In this document: in pieces, positions 17,717 through 38,646 of the stretch | How positions within the stretch are numbered: the first letter of the stretch is position 1 | How the letters are laid out: each line of letters begins with the position of its first letter | Assembly: GCF_001280425.1 (NCBI RefSeq) | Contig: NZ_LIUF01000001.1 | Coordinates: 538,945 to 602,944, forward strand | DNA: 64,000 bases | Direction of reading: 5' to 3' | Source: Haloarcula rubripromontorii | GTDB taxonomy: Archaea; Halobacteriota; Halobacteria; Halobacteriales; Haloarculaceae | The notes under the pieces: generated by a model | The model's input: the letters and a program-made list of their open reading frames with translations, nothing else | The model's database searches: none | What the model was told of the DNA's origin: nothing | Program-made: the position numbers and the translations under genes

Positions 17717-17744
17717 CGCTAAAACAACTCAGATTGTTTTAGCG
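17717..17744. promoter_or_regulatory. Cobalamin-locus operator, site D (before the cbiX-like gene)
   Basis: A perfect inverted repeat: CGCTAAAACA at 17717-17726 and TGTTTTAGCG at 17735-17744 around an 8-base spacer. It contains the TAAAACAA-N6-TTGTTTTA core seen, with small changes, at four other promoters of this locus. It ends 13 bases before the start codon at 17758. No T-run follows, so it is not a standard terminator. An operator role is inferred from recurrence. Confidence 0.65.
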
Positions 17745-17757
17745 TCGGACGCTACCA

Positions 17758-18531
17758 ATGCCACACGACACACTCCTGCTCATCGGTCGGGACACGTCAC
17801 GCGCTACGCCCTACGAGACACACGCTCGCCGGCTTCGCGAGCGCGGGGTAGCTACCGACGTGACGGTGCTGACCTACGACCACGAACCCCGTCGGGAGTT
17901 ACGCGACGAACTGGTAGCCATCGATGCCGACCGCGTGTTCGCGCTGCCGATGACCGTCGCTCACGACCACACGACAGTCACGGACGTCCCGGCAGCACTC
18001 GACGAAATCGACGCCGAGACACACTACTGTGAACCAGTCGGGCGAAGCCCGCTGCTGACCGAAGCGCTCCGTGACCGCGCCACTGCTGCGGTCCCGGAGG
18101 CCGCTGACTCCTCCGTCGCGCTCGTCGCCTTCGGCTCCAGCGGCAAGCCGTATCAACGTCAGGTGACGGAGTATCACGCCGAGCGCCTGCGCGAGCGCTC
18201 GGCCTTCGGCGAGGTCGAGCCCTGCTATCTGCTGCAAAACCCCGCTGTCGAATGTGTCCGGTACAATCTCACCCACGACCACGCCGTCGCCGTGCCGCTC
18301 TTTCTCGCGCCGACTGACGCGACAGAGACGCAGATTCCCGCCAAACTCGATCTCGACAGGGGCGGACTCGCCTACACCGACACGCTGGACGACCACCCGC
18401 TTGTCACCGAGGCCGTCGCGACCGCCGTCGAAACGGCACGGACGATGGCCGACTCACGCACGCCACAGACGTTCGAGACGACGCTGGCCGCGACAAACCG
18501 GCCGATGGCGACCGACGGCGAGGGCGACTAG
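17758..18531 (+). CDS. CbiX-family protein with altered chelatase motifs
   Basis: The 257-residue protein has the two-lobed layout of CbiX/sirohydrochlorin chelatases. Lobe 1 begins Leu-Leu-Leu-Ile-Gly-Arg-Asp-Thr-Ser where active CbiX has Gly-His-Gly-Ser, so the catalytic histidine is replaced. The second lobe begins Val-Ala-Phe-Gly-Ser-Ser and keeps one candidate ligand in Asp-Asp-His-Pro-Leu-Val near the C-terminus. A second CbiX in this locus (30039-31262) keeps the motif. This copy may be an inactive or repurposed cobalt-binding protein. The palindrome just upstream places it in the presumed cobalamin regulon. Family assignment is by pattern. Confidence 0.7.
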   Translation: MPHDTLLLIGRDTSRATPYETHARRLRERGVATDVTVLTYDHEPRRELRDELVAIDADRVFALPMTVAHDHTTVTDVPAALDEIDAETHYCEPVGRSPLLTEALRDRATAAVPEAADSSVALVAFGSSGKPYQRQVTEYHAERLRERSAFGEVEPCYLLQNPAVECVRYNLTHDHAVAVPLFLAPTDATETQIPAKLDLDRGGLAYTDTLDDHPLVTEAVATAVETARTMADSRTPQTFETTLAATNRPMATDGEGD

Positions 18532-18918
18532 GACCGGTTTGCTCGGTTCTTGCTAAGTCAGCGGGCCGTTTTGAAGTAGAAAATAGCACGGACAGCGCTT
18601 TTCGGACCGCCTCGAACGCCCTCGACCGCTCGCGGTCGCCGGCCGGCATATCCTCGCTCGCGTCGCTCGCTCGGATAGCGGCCGCCCAGGCGACTCCCCG
18701 CTGGCGCGAGTCGCTCACGGCTCGTCCCTCGCCGTTCGCGAACGAGGCGCGGCGCGCCTCGTCGGTCTCGCCCGTTCAGTCCGCCAGGAGCGTCCGTCCG
18801 AGTCGACAGCCTGCCCTTCCCCGGGGCGGCCGACGGAGCGGCCGCCCGGCCACGGCTGATTGAACGTGTGAAGCAAAGCGGCAGGTGAACAATCGAGAAG
18901 GCCCGCACACTGGCGCGG
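18532..18918. other. Convergent intergenic region
   Basis: About 390 bases between the ends of the cbiX-like gene and cbiE. Much of it is GC-rich with repeated tcgctcg/cgagcga short inverted motifs around 18650-18690, common in haloarchaeal spacers. No gene or recognisable RNA. Confidence 0.5.
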
Positions 18919-19680
18919 TCAGTTCCGGCGCACGACCAGCACCGAGAGATCGGAAAACTGCGTGTCCTCCCGACCGTCACCGCCGGCCCCAGTAGCGAGG
19001 TCGCCAAGCGTCGTCGCGGTGCGGGCCTCGTCGTCGTGGGTGAGCCGCTCGTACACCAGCGCCGGCAGTTCGGGGTCGGCCCCCGAATCGAGCAGGTCGG
19101 CGGCGATGTCCTCGGGCATCAGGTCGAACGGCCGCGGGAGGACGAGCAAGTGCCGGTCGCCCACGTCGCGGCGGAGGCGGTCGCGGTCCGCCGAGAGGTC
19201 GCCGCTCTTGTGCAGCGTGACGAAGGTCGTGTCCTCCATCGGCGTCCGGGCGCGGCTGGCCGCAATCTGGAGTGAGGAGATGCCCGGCACGACGCGGACG
19301 GGGCGGTCGACGGCCCGCTGGACCTTCCCGACGAACTGGTAGCCCGAGTGGTTCGGGTCGCCCATCAGCACGGCCGTGCCGCGCTCGCCGGCGGCCACGC
19401 GCTCGGCGAAGGCGTCGAGCGTGTCCAGTTCGTCGCGGTAGCCACAGGTCAGCAGGTCCGCGTCGGTGCGGTCGGCGACGAAGTCGACGACGGTCTCGAA
19501 GCCGACGACCACGTCGGCCTCCCGAATCGCGTCCTCGCCGCGCGGCGTGAGGAAGTCGAGGTTCCCGGGGCCGATGCCGACGGCGCGGACCGGCCGGTCG
19601 GCGTCGGGGTTCTCGGGCGCGCTCGCCGCGAGAGCGGCGGGGTCCGGCCCGCTGTCGAGGTCGTAATCGTCCTCAGTCAT
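18919..19680 (-). CDS. cbiE: Cobalt-precorrin-7 (C5)-methyltransferase
   Basis: The 253-residue SAM-dependent tetrapyrrole methylase has Gly-Ile-Gly-Pro-Gly-Asn-Leu-Asp-Phe-Leu-Thr near the N-terminus and Val-Pro-Gly-Ile-Ser-Ser-Leu-Gln in the middle, both diagnostic of CbiE. It methylates C5 of cobalt-precorrin-7. In many bacteria CbiE is fused to CbiT; here CbiT is a separate gene at 37988-38593. It is last in the minus-strand cobN-cbiC-cbiE unit, 66 nt after cbiC. An acidic N-terminal extension of about 30 residues is a haloarchaeal trait. Confidence 0.9.
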   Translation of the reverse strand: MTEDDYDLDSGPDPAALAASAPENPDADRPVRAVGIGPGNLDFLTPRGEDAIREADVVVGFETVVDFVADRTDADLLTCGYRDELDTLDAFAERVAAGERGTAVLMGDPNHSGYQFVGKVQRAVDRPVRVVPGISSLQIAASRARTPMEDTTFVTLHKSGDLSADRDRLRRDVGDRHLLVLPRPFDLMPEDIAADLLDSGADPELPALVYERLTHDDEARTATTLGDLATGAGGDGREDTQFSDLSVLVVRRN

Positions 19681-19746: not shown

Positions 19747-20517
19747 TCATAGATCAACCTCCCCCTCGCGTACGTCACTTGCGACGTGCACCAGTTCGTT
19801 CGTCAGGCCGGCGGCCAGCCCGCTCCCGCCGCGGCGGCCGACGTTCGTGATGGCCGGAACGCCGTACTCGGCCGCGACTTCGCGGAGCCGCTGTCGGCTC
19901 TCGGCGGCCTTCACGAAGCCGACCGGCGTGGCGACGACGACCGCCGGGCGCGTGCCGTCCTCGATGCAGTCCGCCAGCGCGAGCGCCGCGGTCGGCGCAT
20001 TGCCCACGACGGCGATAGCGCCGTCGTAGACGCCTTCCCTGTCGAGTTCCAGCACGGACGCGGCCGTCCGGGTCATGCCCGTCTCGGCGGCCAGTTCCGC
20101 GCCGTTGCCGATGGCCTTCCGAACCGGGCAGTCGTGGCCGCGGCCGGTGATACCCGCTTTCACCATCGTGATGTCGGTGACGATTGGCTGTTCGTCCAGC
20201 ACGGCGCGCGCACCCGCGCGGACCGGTTCGTCGTCGTCCGCGCCGGTGAAGCGGACGAGGTGCTGGAACTCGGGGTCCCCGGTCGCGTGGACCGACTTCT
20301 GGCGGATGCGGTCGGCGAGCGTCTCGTCAGGGACGAGTTCGCGCACGCGGTCCATCGAGGTCTCGGCGATGTCCATCGCGTTCTCCGTCGTCGCGCCGAG
20401 GTCGGCGTACTCCTCGAAGTCGTCCTCGCTGTTCGTGCCGTCTGTCGCGTCGTCTGCGTCGGCGGTTTCACCGCCTCCGTCTCGCGACCCCTCCGGCGTC
20501 GCGCCATCAGTCGTCAT
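19747..20517 (-). CDS. cbiC: Cobalt-precorrin-8 methylmutase
   Basis: The 256-residue protein has a CbiC/CobH core from about residue 40, with Ala-Gly-Ile-Thr-Gly-Arg, Val-Val-Gly-Asn-Ala-Pro-Thr-Ala, Thr-Pro-Val-Gly-Phe-Val-Lys-Ala and Asn-Val-Gly-Arg-Arg-Gly-Gly-Ser motifs. It moves the C11 methyl group to C12 to give cobyrinate. The first 40 residues are an acidic extension. Its start overlaps the end of cobN by 11 nt, implying translational coupling. Confidence 0.92.
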   Translation of the reverse strand: MTTDGATPEGSRDGGGETADADDATDGTNSEDDFEEYADLGATTENAMDIAETSMDRVRELVPDETLADRIRQKSVHATGDPEFQHLVRFTGADDDEPVRAGARAVLDEQPIVTDITMVKAGITGRGHDCPVRKAIGNGAELAAETGMTRTAASVLELDREGVYDGAIAVVGNAPTAALALADCIEDGTRPAVVVATPVGFVKAAESRQRLREVAAEYGVPAITNVGRRGGSGLAAGLTNELVHVASDVREGEVDL

Positions 20518-23500
20518 CCGAGGTCACCTCCGTCCGTTCTGGACCGCTGTTGCGCGCTTCGAGGTCGCCATCCACTTCCAGGTTCAAGTCCCTGAGCTGG
20601 TCGCGGGTCTCGTCGTCGGCATCCCAGAGGCCGCGGTCGATAGCCTCCAACAGCGTATCGGTGATGGAGTCCAGCGCCCAAGGGTTCACGTCGCGGAGCC
20701 AGTCTTGCCGCTCTTCGTCGAAGGCGTAGCGCTCGGCCACGTCGTCCCACAGCGTGTCGCTGACGACGCCGGTGGTGGCGTCCCAGCCCAGCACCACGTC
20801 GACCGTCGTCGAGAGGTCGCCAGCGCCCTTGTAGCCGTGTTCCTCCATCGAGTCGAGCCACGAGGGGTTGAGCACGCGGGCGCGCATCGCCTTGCGCACC
20901 TTCTCCCCGTTGGTGTACACGTCGACGTTGTCGGGGTCCGACGAATCGCCGACGTAGGAGTTCGGTTCCTCGCCGGCGATCTCCGTCACGGCGGAGATGA
21001 ATCCGCCGTGGAAGGCGTACCAGTCCGAGGAGTCGAACTCGTCCTGTTCGGCGGTGTCCTCGATCTTGACCGTCGCGTCGACCGACGAGAGTCGGCGTTC
21101 GAAGGACTCGTGGGCCTCGCTGACGCGGCCGCGCGACCCCATCGCGTAGCCGCCCCACTGGACGTACACGTCGGCGAGGTCCGAGCGGTCGTCCCAGTTG
21201 CCCTCGTCGACGGCCTTGTTCGTGCCCGCGCCGTAGCCGCCGGGTCGCGTCGTGAACACGCGCTGTGTCGCGGCGCTGCGGGCGTCGCCCTCGTCCATGC
21301 CGTCGGCCACGAGGTCGTCGGTCTCCGCTTCGACGTGCTTCTTGACGTAGTTCATCTCGTGTGGCTCGTCGAGGTCGACGACGGCGTCGACGGCGTCGTG
21401 GACGACCCCCGCCGCCGCCGGGAAGGCGTCCCGGAACAGGCCGGAGACGCGCGTCGTCACGTCGATGCGCGGGCGGCCCAGTTCGTCGAGAGGAATCGGC
21501 TCCACGTCCTCGACGCGGCCGGCGTCGGACCAGACCGGTTCGACGCCCATCAGCGCGAGTACCTGCGCGATGGTCTCGCCGCGCGTGCGGACGGTTGGCG
21601 TCCCCCAGACCACGACCCCGATCTCCTCGGGATACTCGCCCTCGTCGCTCTCGTGGCGGTCGACCACGCCGGATGCGACCTCGCGGCCCACGTCCCAGGC
21701 CGTCTTGGCCGGGACCTTCCGCGGGTCGAGCGTGTAGAAGTTCCGGGCGGTGGGGAGCAGGTCGACGCCGCCGCGGGTCGGCGCGCCGGAGCCGCCGGGC
21801 GGGACGTACTCGCCGGCCAGCGCGTCGGCGGTGCGGGGAATTTCGTCGGCCGCGCCGGCCACCCGCGGGGCGGCCTCCTCGCAGATGTACGCGAGCGCCT
21901 CGCGCAGGTCGTCGTGTGCACCCGACCGCACGCGGGCGTCGCCGAGCGGTTCGATGTCGACCACGAGGAGGTTCATGTTCACCTCGGAGTCGCTGTCTTC
22001 GAGTTCACTCTCGGGCACGTCGAAGTCGTGCTCGGCGAGCGTTCGGACGAGGTCTTTGCTCGTCTCGTGGACGCGGTCGGCGGCCTCGGCGTAGGTCATC
22101 CCCAGCGCCTCGTCGTACTCGCCGGGGGCGTTGCGCAGTTTGTCGTAGTCGACGCCGAGAACGCCTGCGACGCTCTCGCGAAGCGACGGCGCGCCGGGGT
22201 TCTCCAGGCGCGTGAGCGCGACCAGATAGTCGACGAGCCGGTCGTCGGCCGGCGGCTCACCCATCGTGTGCAAGCCTTTGCGTATCTGGGTCGTCTTCAC
22301 GTCGGTCAAGTACTCGTGGACGCGCTCGACGAGGGCATCGATGTCGAGGTCCTCGCCTTCCACAGCACCTTCCGCAAGGGTCGACCCGGCTTCATCGGGA
22401 CCGCGCACGTCGGCCTTCTCGTCGATCTCGCCCGCAATCCCGAGTTCCACGGCGAGGTCCAGTTCGTCCACGGTCGCGCGGATCTGTTCTGCGAGGTGCT
22501 CGCCGTCGTCGGTGCGGGCGTCCTCCATGCCCGCCTCGCGGTAGCGGTCGGCCAGTTCCTCCAGGTCGGCCAGGTCGTCATAGGTGCCGGCGTTGGCCAT
22601 CACCGGCGTCAGGTAGTCGACGATGGCGGCGTAGGACCGGCGCTTGGCCTGGGTCCCCTCGCCGGGGTTGTTGACGATGTAGGGGTAGACGTTCGGGATG
22701 TCGTCGACGAGCTGGTCGGGCGCGCTCTCGCCGTCGAGTCCGACGGTCTTGCCGGGGAGCCACTCCAGACTGCCGTGAGTCCCGAGGTGGACGACGGCGT
22801 CGGTCTCGTAGCTGTTTCGGAGCCAGCGGTAGAACGCGACGTAGTCGTGGGGTGGCTGGAGGTCCGAGTCGTGGTACACCTTCGAGGGGTCCATGCCGAA
22901 CCCGCGCGGGGGCTGGACCGTGACGAGGACGTTGCCGAACTCGACGCCGGGGATGGCGAACGGGCGCTCGGGCGGGTCGCCCCACTCCTCGACGACGTTC
23001 TCGCGGAAGTCGGCGTCGAGTCCCTCGAACCACTCACCGTACTGGGCGGGTGAGACGGTGTCGACGCTCAGTTCGCGCACATCCTCCGGAGCGACCCAGC
23101 GGTCGTCGAGTGTCAGTTGGGCGGTGAGGCGTTCGACGAGCGACTGGCCGCTGTCGGGCATCGTGTTCCCGAGGTCGTAGCCGCGAGCGTCCAGTTCCTC
23201 CAGCAGGTTCACCGTGCTCTCGGGCGAGTCCAGCCCGAAGGCCGTCCCGATGCCGTCGTCGCTGGGCGGGTAGTTGTGGAGGACGACGGCCACGTTCTTC
23301 TCGTCGTTCGGGGTGTGGCGCAGTTCGGCCCAGTTGACCACGAGGCGGGCGACGTGGTCGACGCGGTCCTCGATGGGGAAGTGCTGTTTCGGCGCGCTCC
23401 CGATGTCGGCGTCGTCCTCGGTGCGCTCCTTGCCCGAGATGGGGTGGGTGATGACGTTGCCGTCGAACTCCGGGAGCGCGACCGAGAGCGCGAGTTCGAA

Positions 23501-24394
23501 GCCCATCACGCCCGTGTCGCTGGCGTCGTACCGCGAGCGGGAGCGCATCGTCGTCACCGTCTGGATGACGGGGACGCCGAGCTTGTCGAGGAACACGTCC
23601 TCTGCGCTCTGGCCCTCGTCGTCCGCGCTGCGGCCGCGCTCGTCCATCGACAGCGAGAACATGAACGACGAGCAGACGGCGTCGACGAGTGGATTGCCGT
23701 CCTCGTCCAGCAGCCACTCCTCGGTGACCTGCTCGGCGTTCCACTGGCCCTCGGCGTCGGTCGCCGGCTCGCAGAATATCGGGAGCGCGTTCGCGCCCTG
23801 GGCCTCGATGGCCCGGACCTGCGCGTCGACGTACCGGGTGTTCTCGTGGGTCCAGTGAGACTCGTAGAACCACACGGCGACGGTCGGCTTCGCGGGGTCG
23901 AACGTCGCCCGCAGGTCCTCGATGTTCGCGCCCGGATGGTCGGGATGGTACACCCCCTCCGTCGGGAGCGTCACCGGGTCGTCGTAGGATGGGTCGGCGT
24001 CGCCGTACTGCGCGACGAGGTAGCGGGCGCAGTTGGCGACGTTTTTCGCGCCGCCTTTCTCCAAGTACTCGTAGACGGTCTCGCGGTGCTCGTCGGGGAC
24101 CGACGTGTCCTCGAAGGCGAAGGCGTCGCCCGTCGCTTTCACCACGAGCGGGACGCCGGCCTCGCGCAGGCGCTCGACGGCCATCTCGTAGCCGGGCATG
24201 CTGTCCTCGGCCCCGTGGAGCCAGAGGACGACGGCGTCGGCGTCGGTCAGTTCGTCGACGAACGCCTCGACCGCCGGCTCGTCGTCGAGGTCGCTCTCCG
24301 AGCGCACGACGAGGTCGGCCTCGACCTCGCCCGCGGCCCGCTGGACGGTCCCGAGTTCGTTCTCCGTCGCGGTGTAGAGTCCTAGCTGTGGCAT
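20507..24394 (-). CDS. cobN: Cobaltochelatase large subunit CobN
   Basis: The 1295-residue protein matches the CobN/BchH family in length and features. The N-terminus has an Asp-Ala-Val-Val-Leu-Trp-Leu-His-Gly segment, the middle has His-Leu-Gly-Thr-His-Gly-Ser-Leu-Glu-Trp-Leu-Pro-Gly-Lys, and the C-terminal third has Arg-Pro-Arg-Ile-Asp-Val. CobN is the metal- and porphyrin-binding subunit and works with an AAA+/VWA ATPase, encoded divergently by chlID. Its start lies beside operator site A, whose TTGTATTAGTA could be a TATA element about 27 nt upstream. cbiC overlaps its stop, so cobN leads a three-gene operon. Confidence 0.95.
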   Translation of the reverse strand: MPQLGLYTATENELGTVQRAAGEVEADLVVRSESDLDDEPAVEAFVDELTDADAVVLWLHGAEDSMPGYEMAVERLREAGVPLVVKATGDAFAFEDTSVPDEHRETVYEYLEKGGAKNVANCARYLVAQYGDADPSYDDPVTLPTEGVYHPDHPGANIEDLRATFDPAKPTVAVWFYESHWTHENTRYVDAQVRAIEAQGANALPIFCEPATDAEGQWNAEQVTEEWLLDEDGNPLVDAVCSSFMFSLSMDERGRSADDEGQSAEDVFLDKLGVPVIQTVTTMRSRSRYDASDTGVMGFELALSVALPEFDGNVITHPISGKERTEDDADIGSAPKQHFPIEDRVDHVARLVVNWAELRHTPNDEKNVAVVLHNYPPSDDGIGTAFGLDSPESTVNLLEELDARGYDLGNTMPDSGQSLVERLTAQLTLDDRWVAPEDVRELSVDTVSPAQYGEWFEGLDADFRENVVEEWGDPPERPFAIPGVEFGNVLVTVQPPRGFGMDPSKVYHDSDLQPPHDYVAFYRWLRNSYETDAVVHLGTHGSLEWLPGKTVGLDGESAPDQLVDDIPNVYPYIVNNPGEGTQAKRRSYAAIVDYLTPVMANAGTYDDLADLEELADRYREAGMEDARTDDGEHLAEQIRATVDELDLAVELGIAGEIDEKADVRGPDEAGSTLAEGAVEGEDLDIDALVERVHEYLTDVKTTQIRKGLHTMGEPPADDRLVDYLVALTRLENPGAPSLRESVAGVLGVDYDKLRNAPGEYDEALGMTYAEAADRVHETSKDLVRTLAEHDFDVPESELEDSDSEVNMNLLVVDIEPLGDARVRSGAHDDLREALAYICEEAAPRVAGAADEIPRTADALAGEYVPPGGSGAPTRGGVDLLPTARNFYTLDPRKVPAKTAWDVGREVASGVVDRHESDEGEYPEEIGVVVWGTPTVRTRGETIAQVLALMGVEPVWSDAGRVEDVEPIPLDELGRPRIDVTTRVSGLFRDAFPAAAGVVHDAVDAVVDLDEPHEMNYVKKHVEAETDDLVADGMDEGDARSAATQRVFTTRPGGYGAGTNKAVDEGNWDDRSDLADVYVQWGGYAMGSRGRVSEAHESFERRLSSVDATVKIEDTAEQDEFDSSDWYAFHGGFISAVTEIAGEEPNSYVGDSSDPDNVDVYTNGEKVRKAMRARVLNPSWLDSMEEHGYKGAGDLSTTVDVVLGWDATTGVVSDTLWDDVAERYAFDEERQDWLRDVNPWALDSITDTLLEAIDRGLWDADDETRDQLRDLNLEVDGDLEARNSGPERTEVTSDDD

Positions 24395-24413: not shown

Positions 24414-24441
24414 TTGTACTAATACAAGTATGGTTGTATTC
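24414..24441. promoter_or_regulatory. Cobalamin-locus operator, site A (between cobN and chlID)
   Basis: TAATACAA at 24420-24427 and TTGTATTC at 24434-24441 flank a 6-base spacer, and an overlapping palindrome TTGTACTAATACAA occupies 24414-24427. The left part covers the likely TATA element of cobN; the right arm runs into the first codons of chlID (ATG at 24430). One protein bound here could control both directions. A chlID TATA-like TATTAAAT lies near 24401-24408, 27 nt before its ATG. Related sites occur at D, E, B and C. Confidence 0.65.
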
Positions 24442-26568
24442 GGCGCGGGCAAAAAAGCTTCGCAGGGGGTCTCCTTCGCGTCCGTGGTGGGCCAGCGAGA
24501 CCTGAAAGAGGGGCTGCTCGCGGTCGCGACGGACAACGACCTCGACGGCCTGCTGGTCCGCGGCGAGAAGGGCACGGCGAAGTCGACGGCGGTGCGCGCC
24601 CTCGCTGACTTGCTCCCCAAGCAGCGGGCGGTCGCGGACTGCCCCTACGGCTGTCCGCCCGACCGCCCCGACGCACAGTGCGAGGACTGCCGGTCGCGGG
24701 CGGACCCGCCAGTCGAGACGCGGCCGGTCCCGCTGGTTACGCTCCCGCTGGGCGCGACGCGGGACCGCGTCGTCGGCACGCTCTCGGTGGCGGACGCGCT
24801 GGACGGCGACCACGAGTTCGACCCCGGCCTGCTGGCCCGCGCGAACCGCGGCATCCTCTACGTCGACGAGGTGAACCTGCTCGACGACCACCTCGTGGAC
24901 GTGCTGCTCGATGCCGCTGCGAGCGGAGTGAACCGCGTCGAGCGCGACGGCGTCACCGTCACGCACCCCGCCGAGTTCACGCTCGTCGGGACGATGAACC
25001 CCGAGGAGGGCGACCTCCGCCCGCAGCTGCGGGACCGCTTCGCGCTCCAGACCGAGGTCAGCGCGTGCGACGACCTCGACGACCGGGTCGCCATCATCGA
25101 CCGGGCGCTCAGCGAGGGCGGTGACGAGGAGGCACAGACCAACGCCGACCGCGCACCCGGCGAGCGACTGCGGACCGCCCGCGAGCTTCTCCCGGAGGTC
25201 GACCTCGCCCGCGAGTTCCGCGAGGAGATCGCCGAGCTCTGCCGGGACGCGGGCCTCGACGGTCACCGCGGCGACATCGCCACCGCGCGGGCGGCCCGGA
25301 CCTTTGCCGCGCTCGACGGTCGGACGACGGTACTCGAATCAGACATCGAGCGCGCCGCCGAGTTCGCGCTGCCCCATCGGCTCACCTCCCGGCCGTTCGA
25401 GGACGCGCCGGACGTGGACGACGTGCTCGACGACCACTTCGATGACGACGAGGGCGAAAACGGGGAAGAATCTACAGAGAGCGGACAGGAAGGAGACGAG
25501 ACAGACGGCGAGGAGGCAGGCGGCGAGTCAGCGGATGACGGCAGTGACGGCGAGGCCGACGACGAAACCGAACAGCAGGAACAGCGGCCGGACGACAGCG
25601 GAGACTCCGGGGAGGACGGCGAGAGTGAGTCGGGCGAGCGCGGCGAGCAGCCGACGCCCGCCTCGGCCGACAGCGACGGCGAGCGACAGGAAAGAGAGGC
25701 CGGCGACAGCGAAGGGGAGGCTGGAGGCGACGGTGAGGAAGGAGACTCCGACCAGTCCGACGAGCCCGAAAACGCCACCCCGCTGGTGCCGGGCCAGTCC
25801 CGGGCCGCAGTCGGCGACAGCGGCGCACCCGACGTGGACGCCCCGACAGTGGACACGGACGGCGGGAGTGCAAGCGGCCGTGCGAGCGCGACGGGAACGA
25901 AGCGCGGCGCAACGGTCCGCACCGAGCGCGCCGGCCGCGACGACGAGGTCGACGCTGCAGCGTCGGTCCGAGCAGCAGCCAGCCGCGGGAGCGACCGCGT
26001 CGAGTCGCGAGACCTCCGAAAGTCAGTTCGCGCAGGCGACGCCGAGACGCTGGTCGTGTTCGCCGTCGACGCGAGCGCGTCGATGCGGCCGGCGATGCGC
26101 GCGGCGAAGGGCACTGTTCTCGAACTGCTGAAAGACGCCTATCAGGCACGCGACGGCGTGGCGTTCGTGACGTTCGCCGGCAAGGGCGCGGACGTGGTCC
26201 TGCCGCCGACCGACAGCGTCTCGCTGGCGGCCCGACATCTGAAGGACCTCCCGACCGGTGACCGGACGCCGCTGCCGGACGGACTGACAGCCACTCGCGA
26301 GGTCCTCGACCGGGCGGACCCGGACGCCGGCGTCGTCGTTGTCGTGACTGACGGCCGGGCGAACACCGCCGACGGGAGCCCGGTCGAAGCGACCAGAACC
26401 GCGGCGCGGACGCTTGGTGAAGCAGCCGACCGGACCGTTGTCGTGAATGCTGGTGAAGAGGGGCGTGCTGGATTGCTCGACCTCGTTGCAGAGGAAACAG
26501 ACGCAGCGGTCGTCCCGCTGGACGCGCTGACCGCCGAGCGCGTCGACGCCGCCGCCAGCGAACGATAG
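24430..26568 (+). CDS. chlID: ChlI/ChlD-type ATPase subunit of cobaltochelatase (fused AAA+ and VWA)
   Basis: The 712-residue protein joins both halves of the chelatase motor. Residues about 20-330 are a BchI-like AAA+ domain with Walker A Gly-Glu-Lys-Gly-Thr-Ala-Lys-Ser-Thr at 45-53 and Walker B Leu-Tyr-Val-Asp-Glu-Val-Asn. A long Glu/Asp/Ser/Gly-rich linker (about 335-460) follows. A VWA domain carries the MIDAS motif Asp-Ala-Ser-Ala-Ser at about 547-551. It is divergent from cobN with a 35-nt gap containing operator site A. The start at 24430 fits a leaderless mRNA. It powers CobN-dependent cobalt insertion. Confidence 0.9.
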   Translation: MVVFGAGKKASQGVSFASVVGQRDLKEGLLAVATDNDLDGLLVRGEKGTAKSTAVRALADLLPKQRAVADCPYGCPPDRPDAQCEDCRSRADPPVETRPVPLVTLPLGATRDRVVGTLSVADALDGDHEFDPGLLARANRGILYVDEVNLLDDHLVDVLLDAAASGVNRVERDGVTVTHPAEFTLVGTMNPEEGDLRPQLRDRFALQTEVSACDDLDDRVAIIDRALSEGGDEEAQTNADRAPGERLRTARELLPEVDLAREFREEIAELCRDAGLDGHRGDIATARAARTFAALDGRTTVLESDIERAAEFALPHRLTSRPFEDAPDVDDVLDDHFDDDEGENGEESTESGQEGDETDGEEAGGESADDGSDGEADDETEQQEQRPDDSGDSGEDGESESGERGEQPTPASADSDGERQEREAGDSEGEAGGDGEEGDSDQSDEPENATPLVPGQSRAAVGDSGAPDVDAPTVDTDGGSASGRASATGTKRGATVRTERAGRDDEVDAAASVRAAASRGSDRVESRDLRKSVRAGDAETLVVFAVDASASMRPAMRAAKGTVLELLKDAYQARDGVAFVTFAGKGADVVLPPTDSVSLAARHLKDLPTGDRTPLPDGLTATREVLDRADPDAGVVVVVTDGRANTADGSPVEATRTAARTLGEAADRTVVVNAGEEGRAGLLDLVAEETDAAVVPLDALTAERVDAAASER

Positions 26569-26594: not shown

Positions 26595-26623
26595 TTTTAC
26601 AATCTTACTTGTTCTTAAGACAA
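26595..26623. promoter_or_regulatory. Cobalamin-locus operator, site E (before cbtB)
   Basis: TTTTACAA at 26595-26602 and TTGTTCTT at 26609-26616 flank the spacer TCTTAC, keeping the ACAA-N6-TTGT core, and an AAGACAA half-site follows up to 26623. The centre is about 30 nt before the cbtB ATG at 26635, so a bound protein would block the TATA region. It is the weakest match of the five. Confidence 0.5.
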
Positions 26624-26634: not shown

Positions 26635-26841
26635 ATGCAGGACGACACTGACACTGCACGCGCAACGGACAGCGTGCACGACCGTATCGAACGCGCCAGA
26701 GCGTCGCTGACCGGCCCACAGGTCGCCATCGCCGTTGCGCTGGTGGCGGCGCTCGGCTTCACGCTGCTGTTCGTGCAGGACCCGATGCTGCACGACTCAC
26801 TGCACAACTTCCGACACAGCGCCGGCATCACCTGTCACTGA
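26635..26841 (+). CDS. cbtB: Cobalt transporter accessory protein CbtB
   Basis: I chose the ATG at 26635 over a GTG at 26581, because the extra residues lie across operator site E. The product has 68 residues: a short charged N-terminus, one membrane segment (about 28-48) and a His-rich tail with His-Asp-Ser-Leu-His, Phe-Arg-His-Ser-Ala-Gly and a final Cys-His. This is the CbtB pattern, and the tail is the likely cobalt site. Its stop overlaps the cbtA start (TGATG). Confidence 0.9.
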   Translation: MQDDTDTARATDSVHDRIERARASLTGPQVAIAVALVAALGFTLLFVQDPMLHDSLHNFRHSAGITCH

Positions 26842-31262: not shown

Positions 31263-31921
31263 TATCGGACTCGTTCGATGCTCTTCCGGAGCTTGCGCCG
31301 CCGGCTGGGCGCGAACAGCCCCGTTTCCTCGCTGCCCTCGTACAGCCAGTCGCCGAGGGCAGGTGCCGCGTCGTCGTCGACGCCGAACCAGTAGCCCGAC
31401 GAGGTTTCCGAGAGGTCGTCGTAGGGCGCGTCGACCGGACAGCGGTCCAGCAACGTCTGAATCGTCCGGAGCAGGCGCTCGTCGCTGTGGACGAAGGAGA
31501 TGCCGACGGCGTCGTCGTCGGACTTGAAACACACCGTGCCACAGCCCTCCAGCAACCCCCGGAGGAGCTGGCGGTCGTAGTCGGCCAGCGCGTCGAAGCG
31601 GTAGCCGCCCGAATCGCCGTCGAAGGGGAGTCCGAGTGCGGCGCTGGCGCGGTCCGCGAGGCCGCCGACGACCTGCACCGTGAACTCCTCTTCTGTGCGT
31701 GTTATCGAGGTGTCGTGAGCGTACGCACGCTCGACGATTCGGCGGTCGGCCCGCTCCGCGCCGGCAATGGAGGCCAGTCGCCGGGCGGCCGTCTCGTCGT
31801 TCGTTCGAACCGTGACACAGCCGTCCTCGCACTCGCCGTCACCGGCGACCCGCCCCCAGAAGTACGCCGTCTCGGGGTGGGCCGCGAGCATATCGTTCGG
31901 CGCACCGGTTTCGACGCTCAT
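31262..31921 (-). CDS. LAGLIDADG-like protein embedded in the cobalamin operon
   Basis: This 219-residue protein looks like a two-repeat LAGLIDADG homing-endonuclease fold. Repeat 1 has Tyr-Phe-Trp-Gly-Arg-Val-Ala-Gly-Asp-Gly-Glu at residues 20-30; repeat 2 has Leu-Leu-Arg-Gly-Leu-Leu-Glu-Gly-Cys-Gly-Thr at 119-129, followed by a Leu-Leu-Arg-Thr-Ile-Gln-x-Leu-Leu helix. The metal-binding acid is kept in repeat 1 (Asp28) but replaced by Cys127 in repeat 2, so nuclease activity is doubtful. It is not an intein or intron product: it is a separate gene overlapping the ferredoxin gene by 4 nt and cbiX by 3 nt. A DNA-binding regulatory role is possible. Related haloarchaeal proteins are usually just called cobalamin biosynthesis proteins. 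Confidence 0.65.
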   Translation of the reverse strand: MSVETGAPNDMLAAHPETAYFWGRVAGDGECEDGCVTVRTNDETAARRLASIAGAERADRRIVERAYAHDTSITRTEEEFTVQVVGGLADRASAALGLPFDGDSGGYRFDALADYDRQLLRGLLEGCGTVCFKSDDDAVGISFVHSDERLLRTIQTLLDRCPVDAPYDDLSETSSGYWFGVDDDAAPALGDWLYEGSEETGLFAPSRRRKLRKSIERVR

Positions 31922-32190
31922 GGCTGGACCTCCTCGGTGTCAGTCGCCGGCGCGTCGACTGCCCCTGCGTCCTCCTCGACGGACTCCACGTGAATCGCGT
32001 CCAGCGGACAGGCCGCGGCGGCCTGCTCGGCGTCGTCTCGCCGGTCGTCGTCGAAGGTGGCCGTCACCGCGTGCTCGTCGTCCGTCTCGATGGCAGCCAG
32101 CCCCTCGCTGTCCTCGACGAAGCGGTCGTCCCGGACGAGGCAGGCGAACACGCCGTCGCAGGCGTCGCGGTCGATTGTGATGCGGTACAT
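31918..32190 (-). CDS. Ferredoxin, probably 3Fe-4S
   Basis: The 90-residue protein has Asp-Ala-Cys-Asp-Gly-Val-Phe-Ala-Cys near residues 9-15 and Ala-Cys-Pro-Leu-Asp-Ala-Ile near 60. Only three cysteines fit a cluster, which suggests [3Fe-4S]. It probably passes electrons to a step of corrin synthesis, such as ring contraction or cobalt reduction. It overlaps the LAGLIDADG-like gene by 4 nt and cbiH by 1 nt. Confidence 0.85.
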   Translation of the reverse strand: MYRITIDRDACDGVFACLVRDDRFVEDSEGLAAIETDDEHAVTATFDDDRRDDAEQAAAACPLDAIHVESVEEDAGAVDAPATDTEEVQP

Positions 32191-33287
32191 CAGTAGTCGT
32201 ACTTGGTCTCGTAGCCCCGCGGGGTCACCATCCGGTCGTCCCAGACGTAGGTGTCCTCGTTGCCCACCAGCAGGGTCGTAGTCATGTCCACGAGGTCGGT
32301 CTCGCCCAGGTCAGGCAGGTCGCCGAGTTCGACGATTTCGACCTGCTCGTCCTCGCGGCCGGCGGCGTGGACGACGCCGACGGGCGTCTCGGGGTCGCGG
32401 TGCTCCAGCAGGATTTCACAGCACTTCTCGTAGTTGTCCCGGCGCTTGCGGCTCCAGGGGTTGTAGATGGTGATGGTAAAGCCCTCCTTGGCGGCGGCGT
32501 GGAGCCGCGACTCGATGGTCGGCATGTCGGTGAGGTGGTCCGACAGCGAGATGGAGACGGTGTCGTTGACCAGCGGCGCGCCCACGCGGGCCGCACAGGA
32601 CTGAGCCGCCGGGACGCCGGGCACCACGTCGAAATCGAGCATCGTCGCCGTCGCGCCCTTCGATTCGATGATCTCCAGCGCGAGGCCGGCCAGCGCGTAC
32701 ACGTTCGGGTCGCCGCTGCCGATAATGGCCACGTCGTTGCCCGCCAGCGCGCGGTCGATAGCCTCCTCCGTTCGGGACACCTCGCCGCACATCGGCGTGT
32801 TGTAGATGTCCTCGGCCTGTTCAGTTACTTCGTCGGGCAGGAGTTCGACGTAGGTGGTGTAGCCGACGATGTGTTCGGCGTCGAGCAGTGCGGAGCGAGC
32901 GCGGGCGGTCATCCCTTCAGGCTGGCCGGGACCGAGACCGACGGCGATGAGCTGGCCCGGCTCGGCGTCGAAGTCGTCGACCGTCGCACCGACTTCCTCC
33001 TCTTCCTCCGAGTCGCTGGAGGCGGACGCGCCACAGGAGCTACCGCTCGACGACGAATCGGAGGAGGACGACGCCCCGCACTTGGAAGTCGTGTCGTCGC
33101 CCGCGTCCGGCGTCGTTTCTGTGGACGAGCTTGCCGAGCTCGCGCCGCACTTGGAGCCGGTGTCGGGCTCTGCTTCCGCTTCGCTCGCGGCGTTGCCGCT
33201 CGCGCTTTCCGAGGGGCTTCGCGTCTCGCTTGCGCCGCATTTCGATTCCGTCTCTGTACTCGCGTCTGTGGTGTTGTCAGTACTCAT
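32190..33287 (-). CDS. cbiH: Cobalt-precorrin-3B C17-methyltransferase with a Cys-repeat N-terminal tail
   Basis: The methylase domain (about residues 110-365) has Gly-Leu-Gly-Pro-Gly-Gln-Pro-Glu-Gly-Met-Thr, Ser-Gly-Asp-Pro-Asn-Val-Tyr, Val-Pro-Gly-Val-Pro-Ala and a C-terminal Val-Thr-Pro-Arg-Gly-Tyr, as in CbiH/CobJ. The first 105 residues are a Ser/Thr/Glu-rich tail with four Cys-Gly-Ala-Ser units (cysteines 17, 47, 70 and 85), three preceded by Ser-Lys. Such a tail is not part of normal CbiH. It may bind cobalt or another soft metal. It is the second of two cbiH genes in this operon, starting 2 bases after the first ends. Confidence 0.88.
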   Translation of the reverse strand: MSTDNTTDASTETESKCGASETRSPSESASGNAASEAEAEPDTGSKCGASSASSSTETTPDAGDDTTSKCGASSSSDSSSSGSSCGASASSDSEEEEEVGATVDDFDAEPGQLIAVGLGPGQPEGMTARARSALLDAEHIVGYTTYVELLPDEVTEQAEDIYNTPMCGEVSRTEEAIDRALAGNDVAIIGSGDPNVYALAGLALEIIESKGATATMLDFDVVPGVPAAQSCAARVGAPLVNDTVSISLSDHLTDMPTIESRLHAAAKEGFTITIYNPWSRKRRDNYEKCCEILLEHRDPETPVGVVHAAGREDEQVEIVELGDLPDLGETDLVDMTTTLLVGNEDTYVWDDRMVTPRGYETKYDY

Positions 33288-33289
33288 TG

Positions 33290-34216
33290 TCAGAAATCGT
33301 CGACGTCACGCCCGCCGCGCGGGGTGACGAGGAACTCCTGGTAGTCGTTGCGCCACACTTCGGTCTCGTGAGTGCCGACGACGATGGACGAACCCATGCC
33401 GCCGACCTTGTCGTCGTGGTCGGGCAGGTCGCCAAGCGTCGTGATGGTCTCCGTTTCGTCGTCGAGGTTGCGGCCGGCCTCGCCGCGACCGGAGTCGTTG
33501 ACGATAGCGGCAGGCACGTCGTCGGCTCGTTCCTCCCGCAACACGTCGACGGCCCGCTCGTAGTCGCGCCAGCAGTTGTAGAGGACGACGACGAAGCCGC
33601 TAATCGCGGCCGCCCGGAGCTTTTCCTCGATTTCGTCCCAGCCGCGCCACTTGTCGGACAGCGAGATGGTACAGAAATCGTTCGACAGCGGCGCTCCGAG
33701 GTTCGCCGCCCCCGACAGCGCTGCGGTCACGCCGGGGACGATTTCGATTGGCACGTCGTCGGCGTCGTCGGCGTCGGCCATCGTAAAGAGGAGGTCGGAC
33801 TTCCCGTAGACGTTCGGGTCGCCGCCGGAGACGTGGGCGATGTCCTCGCCGGCACGGACCCGCTCGAAGGCCTCGCGGGCGAGTTCGACCTGCTTGCCCA
33901 TCGACGACCGGATGAGCGTCTGGCGGCTGCCGTCGGGTCGCTCCAGCACGGTCCCTTCCTCATCGGCGATTTCGCCGTCGTCGGTTTCGCCGTCGAGTTC
34001 GGCGGACTGGGGCGGAAGCGTCCCGTCTTTCCGCAGGAACTCCTGATAGAGGTTCGAGGCGATGATGCAGTCGGCGGTCTGGATGACGTCTTTCGCCCGC
34101 TGGGTCATGTCGTGGGGGAGGCCCGGCCCGATGCCAACCACGTACAGCGTCCCGTAGTCGGCTGGACGCGTCGCCTCGGCCGCGGCCGCTGTCGACTGGC
34201 GCCCGTCGCTGCTCAT
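33290..34216 (-). CDS. cbiH: Cobalt-precorrin C17-methyltransferase paralogue (first CbiH)
   Basis: I chose the ATG at 34216, giving 308 residues. It has Gly-Ile-Gly-Pro-Gly-Leu-Pro-His-Asp-Met-Thr, Ser-Gly-Gly-Asp-Pro-Asn-Val-Tyr, Val-Pro-Gly-Val-Thr-Ala and Val-Thr-Pro-Arg-Gly-Gly, so it is CbiH-like. A variable acidic insertion sits near residues 65-105. Two CbiH paralogues side by side suggest that one has another role, such as the ring-contraction partner step. The start codon overlaps the stop of a 16-codon upstream ORF, and operator site B lies 70-100 nt upstream. Confidence 0.85.
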   Translation of the reverse strand: MSSDGRQSTAAAAEATRPADYGTLYVVGIGPGLPHDMTQRAKDVIQTADCIIASNLYQEFLRKDGTLPPQSAELDGETDDGEIADEEGTVLERPDGSRQTLIRSSMGKQVELAREAFERVRAGEDIAHVSGGDPNVYGKSDLLFTMADADDADDVPIEIVPGVTAALSGAANLGAPLSNDFCTISLSDKWRGWDEIEEKLRAAAISGFVVVLYNCWRDYERAVDVLREERADDVPAAIVNDSGRGEAGRNLDDETETITTLGDLPDHDDKVGGMGSSIVVGTHETEVWRNDYQEFLVTPRGGRDVDDF

Positions 34217-34263
34217 CCTGTGTCTCCGAGAGCCGCCGGTCGAATCTCGATACTGTGGCGCAT
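34213..34263 (-). CDS. 16-codon upstream ORF coupled to the cbiH operon
   Basis: From the ATG at 34263 a frame of 16 codons ends in a TGA that overlaps the cbiH ATG as ATGA. A TATA-like TTTTAT at about 34287-34292 lies 27 nt before the uORF ATG, so a leaderless transcript would start at this uORF, not at cbiH. The product (beginning Met-Arg-His-Ser-Ile-Glu) has no known function; the act of translating it may control cbiH. This is inference from geometry. Confidence 0.35.
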   Translation of the reverse strand: MRHSIEIRPAALGDTG

Positions 34264-34287: not shown

Positions 34288-34315
34288 TAAAACAATTGTG
34301 CTTGTATTAGTTCAA
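34288..34315. promoter_or_regulatory. Cobalamin-locus operator, site B (before the cbiH operon)
   Basis: TAAAACAA at 34288-34295, a 6-base spacer, TTGTATTA at 34302-34309, then GTTCAA completing a second overlapping palindrome. The layout and most bases match site C, including the extra CAA half-site. On the minus strand the left arm reads TTGTTTTA and contains the likely TATA element. A protein bound here would block the cbiH promoter. Confidence 0.65.
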
Positions 34316-35194: not shown

Positions 35195-35211
35195 GCGACA
35201 GCTATCACCAC

Positions 35212-35351: not shown

Positions 35352-36323
35352 TTAGCGCCCGATGGCGACGGTAACGGCCTCGTCGTAGCGCGTCTTCTCG
35401 GCCAGCAGGTCGTGTTCGCGACCGGCGGCAATAGCCGAGGCCTCGGCGATGCCCGGCCAGCCGATGAGTTCCTTCGAGCGCGAGGGCGTGGGACCCTCGA
35501 ACTCCTCTAGGGTCTCCTTCTCGAATGCGACGACGCCCAGGCCCCACTCCTCAGCCGCGGCGAGCATGCCGTCCTCATCGGCTTTCCGGGTGCCTGTTGC
35601 GACGAACTCCACGTCGCCGCGGTCGAGGTCAGCCTCGTCCAGCGCCTGCTCCCAGGCCGCGTGGAACTGCTCGACATCCGCGCCGGCAACGCTACCGGTT
35701 CCGAGGACGACGCCGTCGTCTTTGTTACGTTTGAGCACGGTCACATCGTCGTCGACCAGCACTGCTTTCGGCCCGTCGAGGCGCTCGATGGGGCCGAGTT
35801 CGTCGTCGAGCACGGCGAGGTTCGTCGCGACCGTCGAGTCGCCGTTGACCACGTGGGCGTCCAGCGCCTTCGCCTGCTTCTCGACGCCCTGCTTGTCCGC
35901 GGCCTCGCTGGCGGTGGTCATCGCTGGGACCGCGCCCATGCTCGCCAGGTCGTCGGCGACCTGGTTCGCGCCGTGGTGGCCGCCGGTGATGGGGATGGCC
36001 CACGTGAGTTCCTCGTCGACGACACAGATGGCGGGGTCGTCCCACTTGTCGTCGAGCAGGTGCGCGGTCTTGCGCATTGCGATACCGCTGGCCATCAGAC
36101 CGATGAAACAGTCGTATTCGCCCCAGTACTCCTCGAACACGTCGCCGTGGTATTCGAGGATGTCGATGGACTCGTAGCGGTCGCCGATGCCGTCGACGAT
36201 GTCTTCGGCGGTGTCCATCTTCCGCTCGAAGGCGACGATGGCGATGTCCTCTGCCACCTCGCCGTCGGAGTCGGGCGCTTTGCAACTGTTCGAACTGGAT
36301 TCGTTGTCTGTGTCAGTGCTCAT
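35352..36323 (-). CDS. cbiG: Cobalt-precorrin 5A hydrolase CbiG
   Basis: The 323-residue protein has the CbiG core: Ile-Gly-Leu-Met-Ala-Ser-Gly-Ile-Ala-Met-Arg near residue 75, Thr-Gly-Gly-His-His-Gly-Ala-Asn, and a C-terminal Val-Ala-Thr-Gly-Thr-Arg-Lys-Ala-Asp. CbiG opens the delta-lactone of cobalt-precorrin-5A with loss of acetaldehyde. The N-terminus is an acidic Ser-rich tail with one cysteine. The gene overlaps the cbiF stop by one base and ends the cbiT-cbiL-cbiF-cbiG operon. Confidence 0.92.
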   Translation of the reverse strand: MSTDTDNESSSNSCKAPDSDGEVAEDIAIVAFERKMDTAEDIVDGIGDRYESIDILEYHGDVFEEYWGEYDCFIGLMASGIAMRKTAHLLDDKWDDPAICVVDEELTWAIPITGGHHGANQVADDLASMGAVPAMTTASEAADKQGVEKQAKALDAHVVNGDSTVATNLAVLDDELGPIERLDGPKAVLVDDDVTVLKRNKDDGVVLGTGSVAGADVEQFHAAWEQALDEADLDRGDVEFVATGTRKADEDGMLAAAEEWGLGVVAFEKETLEEFEGPTPSRSKELIGWPGIAEASAIAAGREHDLLAEKTRYDEAVTVAIGR

Positions 36324-37201
36324 CAGTCGTCAGCCTCCTGTGAATCCGCGTCGCTTCCCCGGTTCGCCCAGTCGCCATAGAGGAACGACCGCTCGTAGTC
36401 CTCGCCGCCGACGGCGTCGCCGATGACGACCATCGCGGAGGCGCGGTAGCCGGCGTCCTCGACTTTTTCGCCGATGGTCTCGATGGTCCCCTCGATGACG
36501 TCCTCGTCGGGCCAGGACGCGTGGTACACCGCGGCGACGGGCGTGTCGGGGTCGTGGCCGTCTTCGAGTAGCCTGTCCATCGTCTCGCCCACGGCGTGGG
36601 TCCCCAGATAGATACAGGTCGTCACGTCGCCCATGCCGACGAACTCGGAGATGTGGTCCTCGTCTTCGTCCAGCGTCTTGCCCTGCGGGCGGGTGAAGGC
36701 GACGTGGTTGGCGACCTCGTTCAGCGTCAACTGGGTTCGCATCGTCGCGCTGGCGGCGAAGGCGGAGGTGACGCCGGGGACGATGTAGGTCGGCACGCCC
36801 TCGTGTTCAAGCGCGTCCATCTGCTCCAGCGCCGCGCCGTAGATGGCGGGGTCGCCGCTGTGAAGCCGGACCACGGTGTCGCCGGCCTCGTAGGCGTCCC
36901 GCATCAGCGGAATCAGCTCTTCGAGGTCCTTGCCGATGGAGGACACTGTCTCCGCGTCCTCACAGTACTCCTCCAGCAGTTCGCTGTTGACGAGCGAGCC
37001 GGCGTGGACCACGAGGTCGGCGTCGGCCAGCAGGTCGCGGCCAGCGACGGTCAGCAGACGGGGATTTCCGGGGCCGGCCCCGACGAAGGGGATGCCCTCC
37101 TGCTCGTCGCCGGCACTGTACTCGTACACGCGGTCGTCGCGGTTCCCGGCGACGGAGTCGATGGCCGTCTGCGGGTCCGTCTCGCCAGCCTCGTCAGTCA
37201 T
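36323..37201 (-). CDS. cbiF: Cobalt-precorrin-4 C11-methyltransferase
   Basis: I chose the ATG at 37201, giving 292 residues. The methylase domain starts Val-Gly-Ala-Gly-Pro-Gly-Asn-Pro-Arg-Leu-Leu-Thr and contains His-Ala-Gly-Ser-Leu-Val-Asn, His-Ser-Gly-Asp-Pro-Ala-Ile-Tyr and Val-Pro-Gly-Val-Thr-Ser, all CbiF/CobM marks. It uses SAM to methylate C11. Its start overlaps the cbiL stop by 8 nt. Confidence 0.92.
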   Translation of the reverse strand: MTDEAGETDPQTAIDSVAGNRDDRVYEYSAGDEQEGIPFVGAGPGNPRLLTVAGRDLLADADLVVHAGSLVNSELLEEYCEDAETVSSIGKDLEELIPLMRDAYEAGDTVVRLHSGDPAIYGAALEQMDALEHEGVPTYIVPGVTSAFAASATMRTQLTLNEVANHVAFTRPQGKTLDEDEDHISEFVGMGDVTTCIYLGTHAVGETMDRLLEDGHDPDTPVAAVYHASWPDEDVIEGTIETIGEKVEDAGYRASAMVVIGDAVGGEDYERSFLYGDWANRGSDADSQEADD

Positions 37202-37991
37202 GCTGCACCTCGTCACCGCAAAGGGCGGCTTCAGAGCGTTCCTGTCGCGCGACTGCTCCGGAACCGTTCTCGCCGCCGTCGGTCACGACACCGCTCTCGT
37301 CGGCGGCTTCGAGGAAGGCGTCGGTCGCCTGCTCGACGCGCGTCTCGGGTTTCTCGGCGTAGGCCAGCGTGTAGTAGTCTCGCTCGTCGATCTCGGTCGG
37401 GTCGTCGGTGACGATGGTCTCGCCCTGCTCCATGAACAGCCGGCGGCCGTACACCACGTCGTAACCGGCCTCGACCAGCCCCTCGTGGGTGGCCGGCGCG
37501 TCGGTCACCTTGAACAGAATCATCCGGTCGGGGCCGGTCGGCGACGCGCCGCGGTCGGCCTCTCGGAGTGCGAGGCTCGACCCGGCGGTGATTTCCACGC
37601 CCAGCGCCGTCGCAAAGGCCGACATGGCGCTGACGCCGGGCACCACTTCGAGGTCGACCTCGGGGTGGAACGCGGCCAGCGTCCGCCGGAGGTGACCGAA
37701 CGTCGAGTAGACGTTCGGGTCCCCGAGCGTGACGAAGGCGGCGTCGCCGTCGCGGGCGGTCGGCGCGATTTCGGCGGCGGCCGCCTTCCACGCCTCGCGC
37801 AGTTTCTCCTCGTCGCGCGTCATCGGGAAGTCGAGGTCGCCGATGCGGTCCTCGGGAACGTGTTCGGTCGCGACCGACCGCGAGAGCCGCCCCGGCGAGT
37901 ACACTACGTCGGCGGATTCCAGCGCGCGCTTCCCGCGGACGGTAACTAAGTCGGGCTGGCCGGGACCGAGGCCGATGCCGTAGAGCGTCAT
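37194..37991 (-). CDS. cbiL: Cobalt-precorrin-2 C20-methyltransferase
   Basis: The 265-residue protein starts Met-Thr-Leu-Tyr-Gly-Ile-Gly-Leu-Gly-Pro-Gly-Gln-Pro-Asp-Leu-Val-Thr. It has Leu-Gly-Asp-Pro-Asn-Val-Tyr-Ser-Thr and Val-Pro-Gly-Val-Ser-Ala, which mark CbiL/CobI. It adds the C20 methyl group that is later lost at ring contraction. Its start overlaps the end of cbiT by 4 nt. Confidence 0.92.
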   Translation of the reverse strand: MTLYGIGLGPGQPDLVTVRGKRALESADVVYSPGRLSRSVATEHVPEDRIGDLDFPMTRDEEKLREAWKAAAAEIAPTARDGDAAFVTLGDPNVYSTFGHLRRTLAAFHPEVDLEVVPGVSAMSAFATALGVEITAGSSLALREADRGASPTGPDRMILFKVTDAPATHEGLVEAGYDVVYGRRLFMEQGETIVTDDPTEIDERDYYTLAYAEKPETRVEQATDAFLEAADESGVVTDGGENGSGAVARQERSEAALCGDEVQHD

Positions 37992-38593
37992 CGGTCGCCT
38001 CCGTTCGTCGCCCCAGCTTCTGCCGGCGATCCGCCGTCAGCGGCAACGTCCTCGCTGGCGCTGCCGACGAGCATGTACACTGGATTCTCCGAATTGAAGC
38101 TCGTCGCGCCGGCGAGTTCGTAGCCGTGGCTCACCTGAAACTGGACGACTTCCTCCAGAATATCGCGTTCGCGGAAGGCCTCCGTCGCCGCGCCGGCGAC
38201 TTCGAGCCGCGAGACGTTCATCACGATTCGGTCGACGCCGGTCTCGACCGCGTGATCGAGAACGGCCTCGTAGTTGCGCGACCCGCCGAGGAAGAGGGCG
38301 TCGGCGTCGTCGGGCAGGCCCTCCGGGGCCTCGGCCTCGCGGAGTTCGACGTTGGCGTCGACGTCGTTGGCGGCGAGGTTCTTGCGAGTCACGTCGAGTC
38401 GATTCCCCTTGCGTTCGAGTGCAGTGACTCGCCCGGCCCGGCGCGCCGCCGTGATGGTGACGGCACCGGTACAGGAACCGACCTCCACGAAGTGGTCAGC
38501 CTCGGTGAGAGCGAGTTTGCTGGCGAGGACGGCCCGGACCTCCGGCTTGGTGGGACCGGCCTTCGCATCGTGTGGGAGCGAGACGCGGGACAT
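37988..38593 (-). CDS. cbiT: Cobalt-precorrin-6B/7 C15-methyltransferase (decarboxylating) CbiT
   Basis: I chose the ATG at 38593, giving 201 residues. The Rossmann-type methyltransferase has Asp-His-Phe-Val-Glu-Val-Gly-Ser-Cys-Thr-Gly for SAM and Asp-Ala-Leu-Phe-Leu-Gly-Gly-Ser further on. The N-terminal Pro-His-Asp-Ala-Lys-Ala-Gly-Pro-Thr-Lys-Pro-Glu-Val resembles the CbiT Pro-x-Thr-Lys-x-Glu-(Ile/Val) motif. A TATA-like TTTTA in operator site C lies 27 nt upstream, consistent with a leaderless start. It leads the cbiT-cbiL-cbiF-cbiG operon. Confidence 0.92.
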   Translation of the reverse strand: MSRVSLPHDAKAGPTKPEVRAVLASKLALTEADHFVEVGSCTGAVTITAARRAGRVTALERKGNRLDVTRKNLAANDVDANVELREAEAPEGLPDDADALFLGGSRNYEAVLDHAVETGVDRIVMNVSRLEVAGAATEAFRERDILEEVVQFQVSHGYELAGATSFNSENPVYMLVGSASEDVAADGGSPAEAGATNGGDR

Positions 38594-38618
38594 CACGCTA
38601 TACAACTGCAGTAGCGCG

Positions 38619-38646
38619 TAAAACAATTTTGGTTGTATTAATCCAA
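38619..38646. promoter_or_regulatory. Cobalamin-locus operator, site C (before cbiT)
   Basis: TAAAACAA at 38619-38626, spacer TTTTGG, TTGTATTA at 38633-38640, then ATCCAA completing the overlapping half-site. The arms match site B exactly and the distance to the TATA-like element is the same. The site begins 26 nt from the cbiT start codon. The operator role is inferred. Confidence 0.65.

Follow-up and report, generated by a model that had tools for sequence, protein, structure and literature searches.

In bacteria, cobalamin riboswitch regulons act on B12-independent isozymes as well, and CarH-type B12 photoreceptor repressors use adenosylcobalamin. To our knowledge, no riboswitch controls B12 in haloarchaea. 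The archaeal vitamin repressors named in PMC10746257 are ThiR (thiamin) and RbkR (riboflavin), and the same paper predicts a cobalamin regulon with an unknown regulator, "CblrR", in P. furiosus. In Halobacterium salinarum, the cob/cbi genes are controlled by TrmB, and a second, unknown regulator, modelled as an activator, has been inferred (PMC3794607).

The TrmB motif, TACT-N7-8-GAGTA, had no match in the window (by which we mean the whole 64-kb stretch of DNA analysed here), and an Rfam scan of the window found no cobalamin riboswitch, the only matches being to RNase P RNA and a tRNA. What the window does contain is a dyad, ACAA-N6-TTGT, at five promoters of its B12 locus. These operators and the two Rfam matches are as follows:

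17720..17741, operator D: TAAAACAACTCAGATTGTTTTA, a perfect dyad, upstream of the CbiX-like gene
24420..24441, operator A: between cobN (minus strand) and the chlI/D-like gene (plus strand)
26595..26616, operator E: weaker flanks, overlapping the TATA-like TTTTA of cbtBA
34288..34309, minus strand, operator B: its TTGTTTTA arm overlaps the TATA element
38619..38640, minus strand, operator C: upstream of cbiT at -47..-26
43109..43585, minus strand: archaeal RNase P RNA
49357..49430, plus strand: tRNA

The window holds five copies of the core, ACAANNNNNNTTGT, at 17724, 24424, 26599, 34292, and 38623, and no others; shuffled sequence gave 0.27 on average and at most 2. Across the 3.97-Mb genome, which is a Haloarcula judging by its near relatives, the bare core is no more frequent than in a reversed control (24 sites versus 25); five of these 24 sites fall within the 21-kb B12 locus, where ~0.13 would be expected. 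Bare cores outside the locus lack the A/T flanks. When the flanks were included in the search (TAAWACAAN6TTGTWTTA), all four of the genomic matches with at most one mismatch were located at B12 promoters of the window locus. Allowing two mismatches gave five matches, compared with none in the control, and at three the real and reversed counts were equal. Operator E, the fifth site, is a weaker variant of the 22-mer.

At both B and C, there is a TTG half-site 20 bp upstream and a GTTG ~21 bp downstream, and a half-conserved CAA-N6-TTT dyad lies 20 bp upstream of operator D (17705-17716). Operator A overlies the TATA-like TATTA of cobN, which is 26-27 nt before the cobN ATG, together with the start of chlID. 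In six Haloarcula genomes the dyad of operator D is conserved, and its 6-nt spacer drifts. As a separate observation, the TATA-like arm of operator D is only ~17-21 nt before the annotated ATG (window 17720-17758), which is nearer than at B and C and is unexplained.

The genes behind these operators encode corrin-ring synthesis, cobalt uptake, and cobalt chelation functions:

17758..18531, plus strand: CbiX-like gene, under operator D
18919..19680: cbiE, behind cobN
19747..20517: cbiC, behind cobN
20507..24394, minus strand: cobN, on one side of operator A
24430..26568, plus strand: chlI/chlD-like chelatase subunit, on the other side of operator A
26635..26841, plus strand: cbtB, cobalt transporter subunit, behind operator E
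26841..27551, plus strand: cbtA, behind operator E
30039..31235, minus strand (start approximate): cbiX with a C-terminal 2Fe-2S domain, operator B operon
31262..31921, minus strand: LAGLIDADG-like protein of unknown function, inside the operator B operon
31918..32190, minus strand: ferredoxin, operator B operon
32190..33287, minus strand: cbiH2
33290..34216, minus strand: cbiH-like gene 1 (cbiH1), the first long gene after operator B
34214..34263, minus strand: upstream open reading frame (uORF) of 16 codons (MRHSIEIRPAALGDTG, then stop), with its ATG at +46 from operator B
35352..36323, minus strand: cbiG
36323..37216, minus strand: cbiF
37194..37991, minus strand: cbiL, cobalt-factor II C20-methyltransferase
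37988..38593, minus strand: cbiT (TIGR02469), first gene of the cbiT-cbiL-cbiF-cbiG operon, behind operator C

The operon behind operator B thus runs cbiH1-cbiH2-ferredoxin-LAGLIDADG-like-cbiX. The stop codon of the uORF overlaps the start of cbiH1 (ATGA); in relatives, the position of its ATG and this overlap are conserved, the peptide much less so. A short-chain dehydrogenase gene (window 34430-35431, minus strand) separates cbiG from cbiH1, and operator B may have originated when the operon was split there. The LAGLIDADG-like protein, which is just under the Pfam cut-off, is found in the cbi operon of many haloarchaea; its gene is possibly among the cobalamin-cluster genes that PMC8305020 mentions as unassigned. 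As a candidate regulator it is disfavoured, though not excluded; it was unmatched in two genomes (G033 and G035), both of which have the cbiT operator.

Most of what the initial annotation had claimed about the locus held. It had reported the five dyads with correct coordinates for A, E, B, and C, and with D one base off (17719-17740 instead of 17720-17741). Its assignment of the target genes (CbiX-like, CobN/ChlI-D-like, CbtB-CbtA, the CbiH operon, and CbiT) was confirmed, as was its statement that no B12 riboswitch was seen, so far as the window is concerned. The TATA overlap that it inferred at B and C also held, with the qualification that the ATG 27 nt after the TTTTA at B, which is at the leaderless position, opens the 16-codon uORF, and cbiH1 itself starts at 34216. 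Its claim that nearly all B12 genes here have such a site before them is borne out for the genes of de novo corrin-ring synthesis, cobalt uptake, and late cobaltochelatase, with salvage genes located elsewhere falling outside this assessment. Finally, it had conceded that equally many hits before unrelated genes of the same genome would refute it; the full form has none at 0-1 mismatches.

At 2-3 mismatches, weak matches do appear in the same genome. One is located at the divergent tenA/thiR pair (thiamin), and the others have no evident link to B12. In the tenA/thiR promoter (L038:1501-1545; C2:536614 in the window genome), where thiR encodes an HTH+ThiN protein, TACAAC/GTTGTA-type half-sites resemble the B12 operator, and it is possible that this is a ThiR site with similar half-sites. 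An operator-like site with two mismatches also precedes a nitrile hydratase alpha-subunit gene (L239:9129-9150) in another Haloarcula genome, G024; cbiT was not found in that genome, which is 80% complete.

The operator is conserved throughout the haloarchaea, far beyond the window genome. We compared 80 named haloarchaeal cbiT loci from many families, including Halobacterium salinarum. The best match upstream of cbiT had 0-3 mismatches in 78 of the 80 loci and four in the remaining two, mostly at -47..-26. The motif also persists ahead of CbiT orthologues that share only 46-47% identity with the query, and in Natrialba/Natrinema-type genomes its left arm is CCAA in place of ACAA. The footprint of the 80 promoters also revealed a second dyad, CAA-N6-TT[GT], exactly 20 bp upstream, such that the cbiT array can be written as TA-NNN-CAA-N6-TTG with a 20-bp period, followed by a GTT half-site ~21 bp on. 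This tandem array overlaps the BRE/TATA. Dyads that are 20 bp apart are separated by two helical turns, and two dimers could therefore bind adjacently on one face of the DNA. As an aside, one locus labelled Salinivenus (L127, a Rhodothermota MAG) has a haloarchaeal cbiT and an a-type regulator (described below), and is probably misbinned.

Support for the idea that the signal is cobalamin came from relatives that lack cbiT, which tend to have a class I, B12-independent ribonucleotide reductase (RNR) alongside the B12-dependent NrdJ. In a sample of 245 genomes from the order, eight have both nrdA and cbiT, 68 only nrdA, and 109 only cbiT (Fisher p 3e-16 for the exclusion, uncorrected for relatedness). 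We scored nrdA promoters with a matrix built from sites of the B12-locus type; 59 of 76 nrdA or nrdR-nrdA promoters reached the threshold of >=12, compared with one of 76 in reversed sequence. Aligned by column, nrdA promoters show the same pair of dyads at 20-bp spacing; the second lies immediately ahead of the BRE/TATA, and the strong one ~20 bp upstream of the TATA. The operator is mostly absent from nrdJ promoters. Bacterial B12 regulons are known to let B12 repress a B12-free isozyme, and nrdA under the same array follows that classical logic, so that the ligand is probably cobalamin. It is favoured over cobalt because the same tandem operator is found at class I RNR promoters in genomes mostly without the pathway; cobalt would be a poor signal for organisms that do not build the corrin ring. 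There are no ligand data, and the likely identification of cobalamin rests on inference. With the array at cbi, cob, and cbt genes in the window and at nrdA in relatives, the set of targets is what we would ask of a B12-repressed regulon; the response of expression to cobalamin is inferred.

Clustering of the genes around the 80 cbiT loci yielded one transcription-factor-like family, which ORF calling placed divergent from cbiT in 23 of them. The family splits into two clades, a-type and b-type, and Pfam identified a MarR-like winged helix-turn-helix (wHTH) and a C-terminal DUF7839 in a-type, b-type, and H. salinarum proteins alike. AlphaFold predicted the winged helix and the C-terminal alpha/beta part with confidence and the middle poorly (pTM 0.41); Foldseek returned mainly MarR/IclR-type winged helices and no information on a ligand. 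In the 245-genome sample, the a-type gene and cbiT are both present in 50 genomes, and in 40 of these they are no more than 6 kb apart. In five genomes, all of one genus, the a-type gene is instead at most 8 kb from nrdA, and in one genome (G037) it is directly downstream of nrdAB. The H. salinarum a-type gene, at L131:9050-9862, is divergent from cbiT, and its protein is a ready candidate for the second cob/cbi regulator of PMC3794607, with the reservation that an activator is modelled there. We found no description of the operator or of the DUF7839 protein in the literature searched, which mostly excluded subscription papers.

The evidence for this family is uneven. A member is present in all 207 good genomes, usually as one copy that is either a- or b-type, although some genomes hold both; only the ten best candidates were scored per genome, and some second copies were possibly missed. 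The usual single copy fits replacement of the a-type by the b-type, or the reverse. With the family near-universal, no test of its presence against that of the operator is possible. The a-type was not found in 67 of 117 cbiT-bearing genomes, and some a-type genes occur in genomes with neither cbiT nor nrdA. Among a-type genes, 45 of 74 have CAA-N6-TTG in their own promoters (1-2 in the control), compared with none of 14 b-type genes. This apparent autoregulation is only suggestive, since the dyad overlaps the BRE/TATA and part of the signal may reflect the basal promoter. No gene for the regulator lies within the window. The window genome has no a-type gene, only a b-type (G000:C1:126168-126950) in a conserved housekeeping neighbourhood, unlinked to B12 genes and without an operator at its own promoter. 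Linkage of a family gene to operator-bearing targets was thus established for the a-type, and not for the b-type of the window genome.

Based on these data, we consider it likely that the five sites are operators of a haloarchaeal cobalamin regulon, whose repressor is most likely the MarR-like/DUF7839 protein. The sites, their conservation, the array geometry, the target genes, and the gene linkage are shown; repression, the ligand, and the binding protein are inferred. Each operator consists of the ACAA-N6-TTGT dyad with A/T flanks, usually accompanied by a weaker CAA-N6-TTG dyad at a distance of exactly 20 bp. In the proposed mechanism, the repressor would probably bind the operator when cobalamin is abundant and block TBP/TFB or polymerase, with two dimers predicted to cover the BRE/TATA (at cbiT, B, and nrdA), the TATA region (at E and on the cobN side of A), or the start site (on the chlID side of A). 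The pathways shut down would be those for corrin-ring synthesis, cobalt uptake, and cobalt chelation; relatives with class I RNR would shut off this B12-independent enzyme as well. The repressor would be the DUF7839 protein, of which the a-type is often beside cbiT or nrdAB, and the b-type is the only member in the window genome. The initial annotation had proposed a single repressor answering to cobalamin or cobalt, and had named a lack of enrichment near B12 genes in other haloarchaea as a refuting result. The site proved to be strongly tied to B12 genes there; the single repressor is well supported in outline and its signal is narrowed to cobalamin as the favoured one, with the direction of control, the ligand, and the protein all inferred. 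The candidate protein family is put forward with moderate confidence.

The rival that survives best accepts a cobalamin-responsive repressor site and assigns it to a different, unlinked transcription factor, with the DUF7839 gene only a passenger of the cbi cluster. In its favour, the window genome has five strong operators and no a-type gene, and its b-type is unlinked and shows no visible autoregulation. Against it, the a-type is linked to both kinds of operator-bearing locus, to cbiT across many families and to nrdAB within one genus, and we regard this rival as unlikely. That a cobalt-sensing metalloregulator binds the sites is very unlikely. The products of cbtBA, cobN, chlID, and cbiX all concern cobalt, and several HTH profiles gave weak matches to metal regulators, but the same array stands at class I RNR in genomes mostly without cobalt-dependent B12 synthesis, for which free cobalt would carry no useful information. 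There is similarly little to recommend the view that the sites are boxes for NrdR, the ATP/dATP-sensing RNR regulator, extended to B12 genes. Several operators do stand before nrdR-nrdA operons; however, the site is mostly missing from nrdJ, which is the sole RNR of many genomes, B12 and cobalt genes make up the main targets, and the dyads are 20 bp apart (there are no data on NrdR binding). An unusual core promoter (BRE/TATA) without any regulator, suggested by the coincidence of the right arm with the TATA element at cbiT, B, and C, can be all but ruled out, as the strong dyad at nrdA is ~20 bp upstream of the TATA, half-sites are kept while spacers drift, and the full form is B12-specific in the genome.

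The proposed DUF7839 repressor can be set beside the systems already described. TrmB likewise controls cob/cbi genes, but it answers to sugar. CblrR is also the regulator of a predicted archaeal cobalamin regulon; its motif was not compared with ours and the relation is unknown. CarH is, similarly, a protein repressor, whereas our candidate (MarR-like wHTH and DUF7839 by Pfam) has no MerR or B12-binding domain. As with ThiR and RbkR, an archaeal vitamin pathway would be under a two-domain HTH protein, but one with a MarR-like wHTH and DUF7839 instead of a ThiN or kinase domain, and with another ligand. A bolder reading, towards which the evidence leans not quite far enough for us to favour it, is that DUF7839 senses cobalamin in a new way, with no relation to riboswitches or to the B12-binding fold of CarH, and that DUF7839 proteins serve haloarchaea generally as B12 repressors that decide whether DNA precursors are made by the B12-dependent or the B12-independent route. 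The control of B12 in haloarchaea had been open, and our analysis supplies an operator, its geometry, a regulon, a probable ligand, and a candidate protein that is present in H. salinarum too. The closest parallel is with the bacterial cobalamin riboswitch regulons, in which a single B12-responsive control likewise governs B12 genes, cobalt transport, and B12-independent isozymes; in the haloarchaeal case, a promoter DNA dyad and presumably a protein take the place of the RNA. Our results further point to a single switch that sets B12 synthesis against the B12-free making of DNA precursors throughout an archaeal order.
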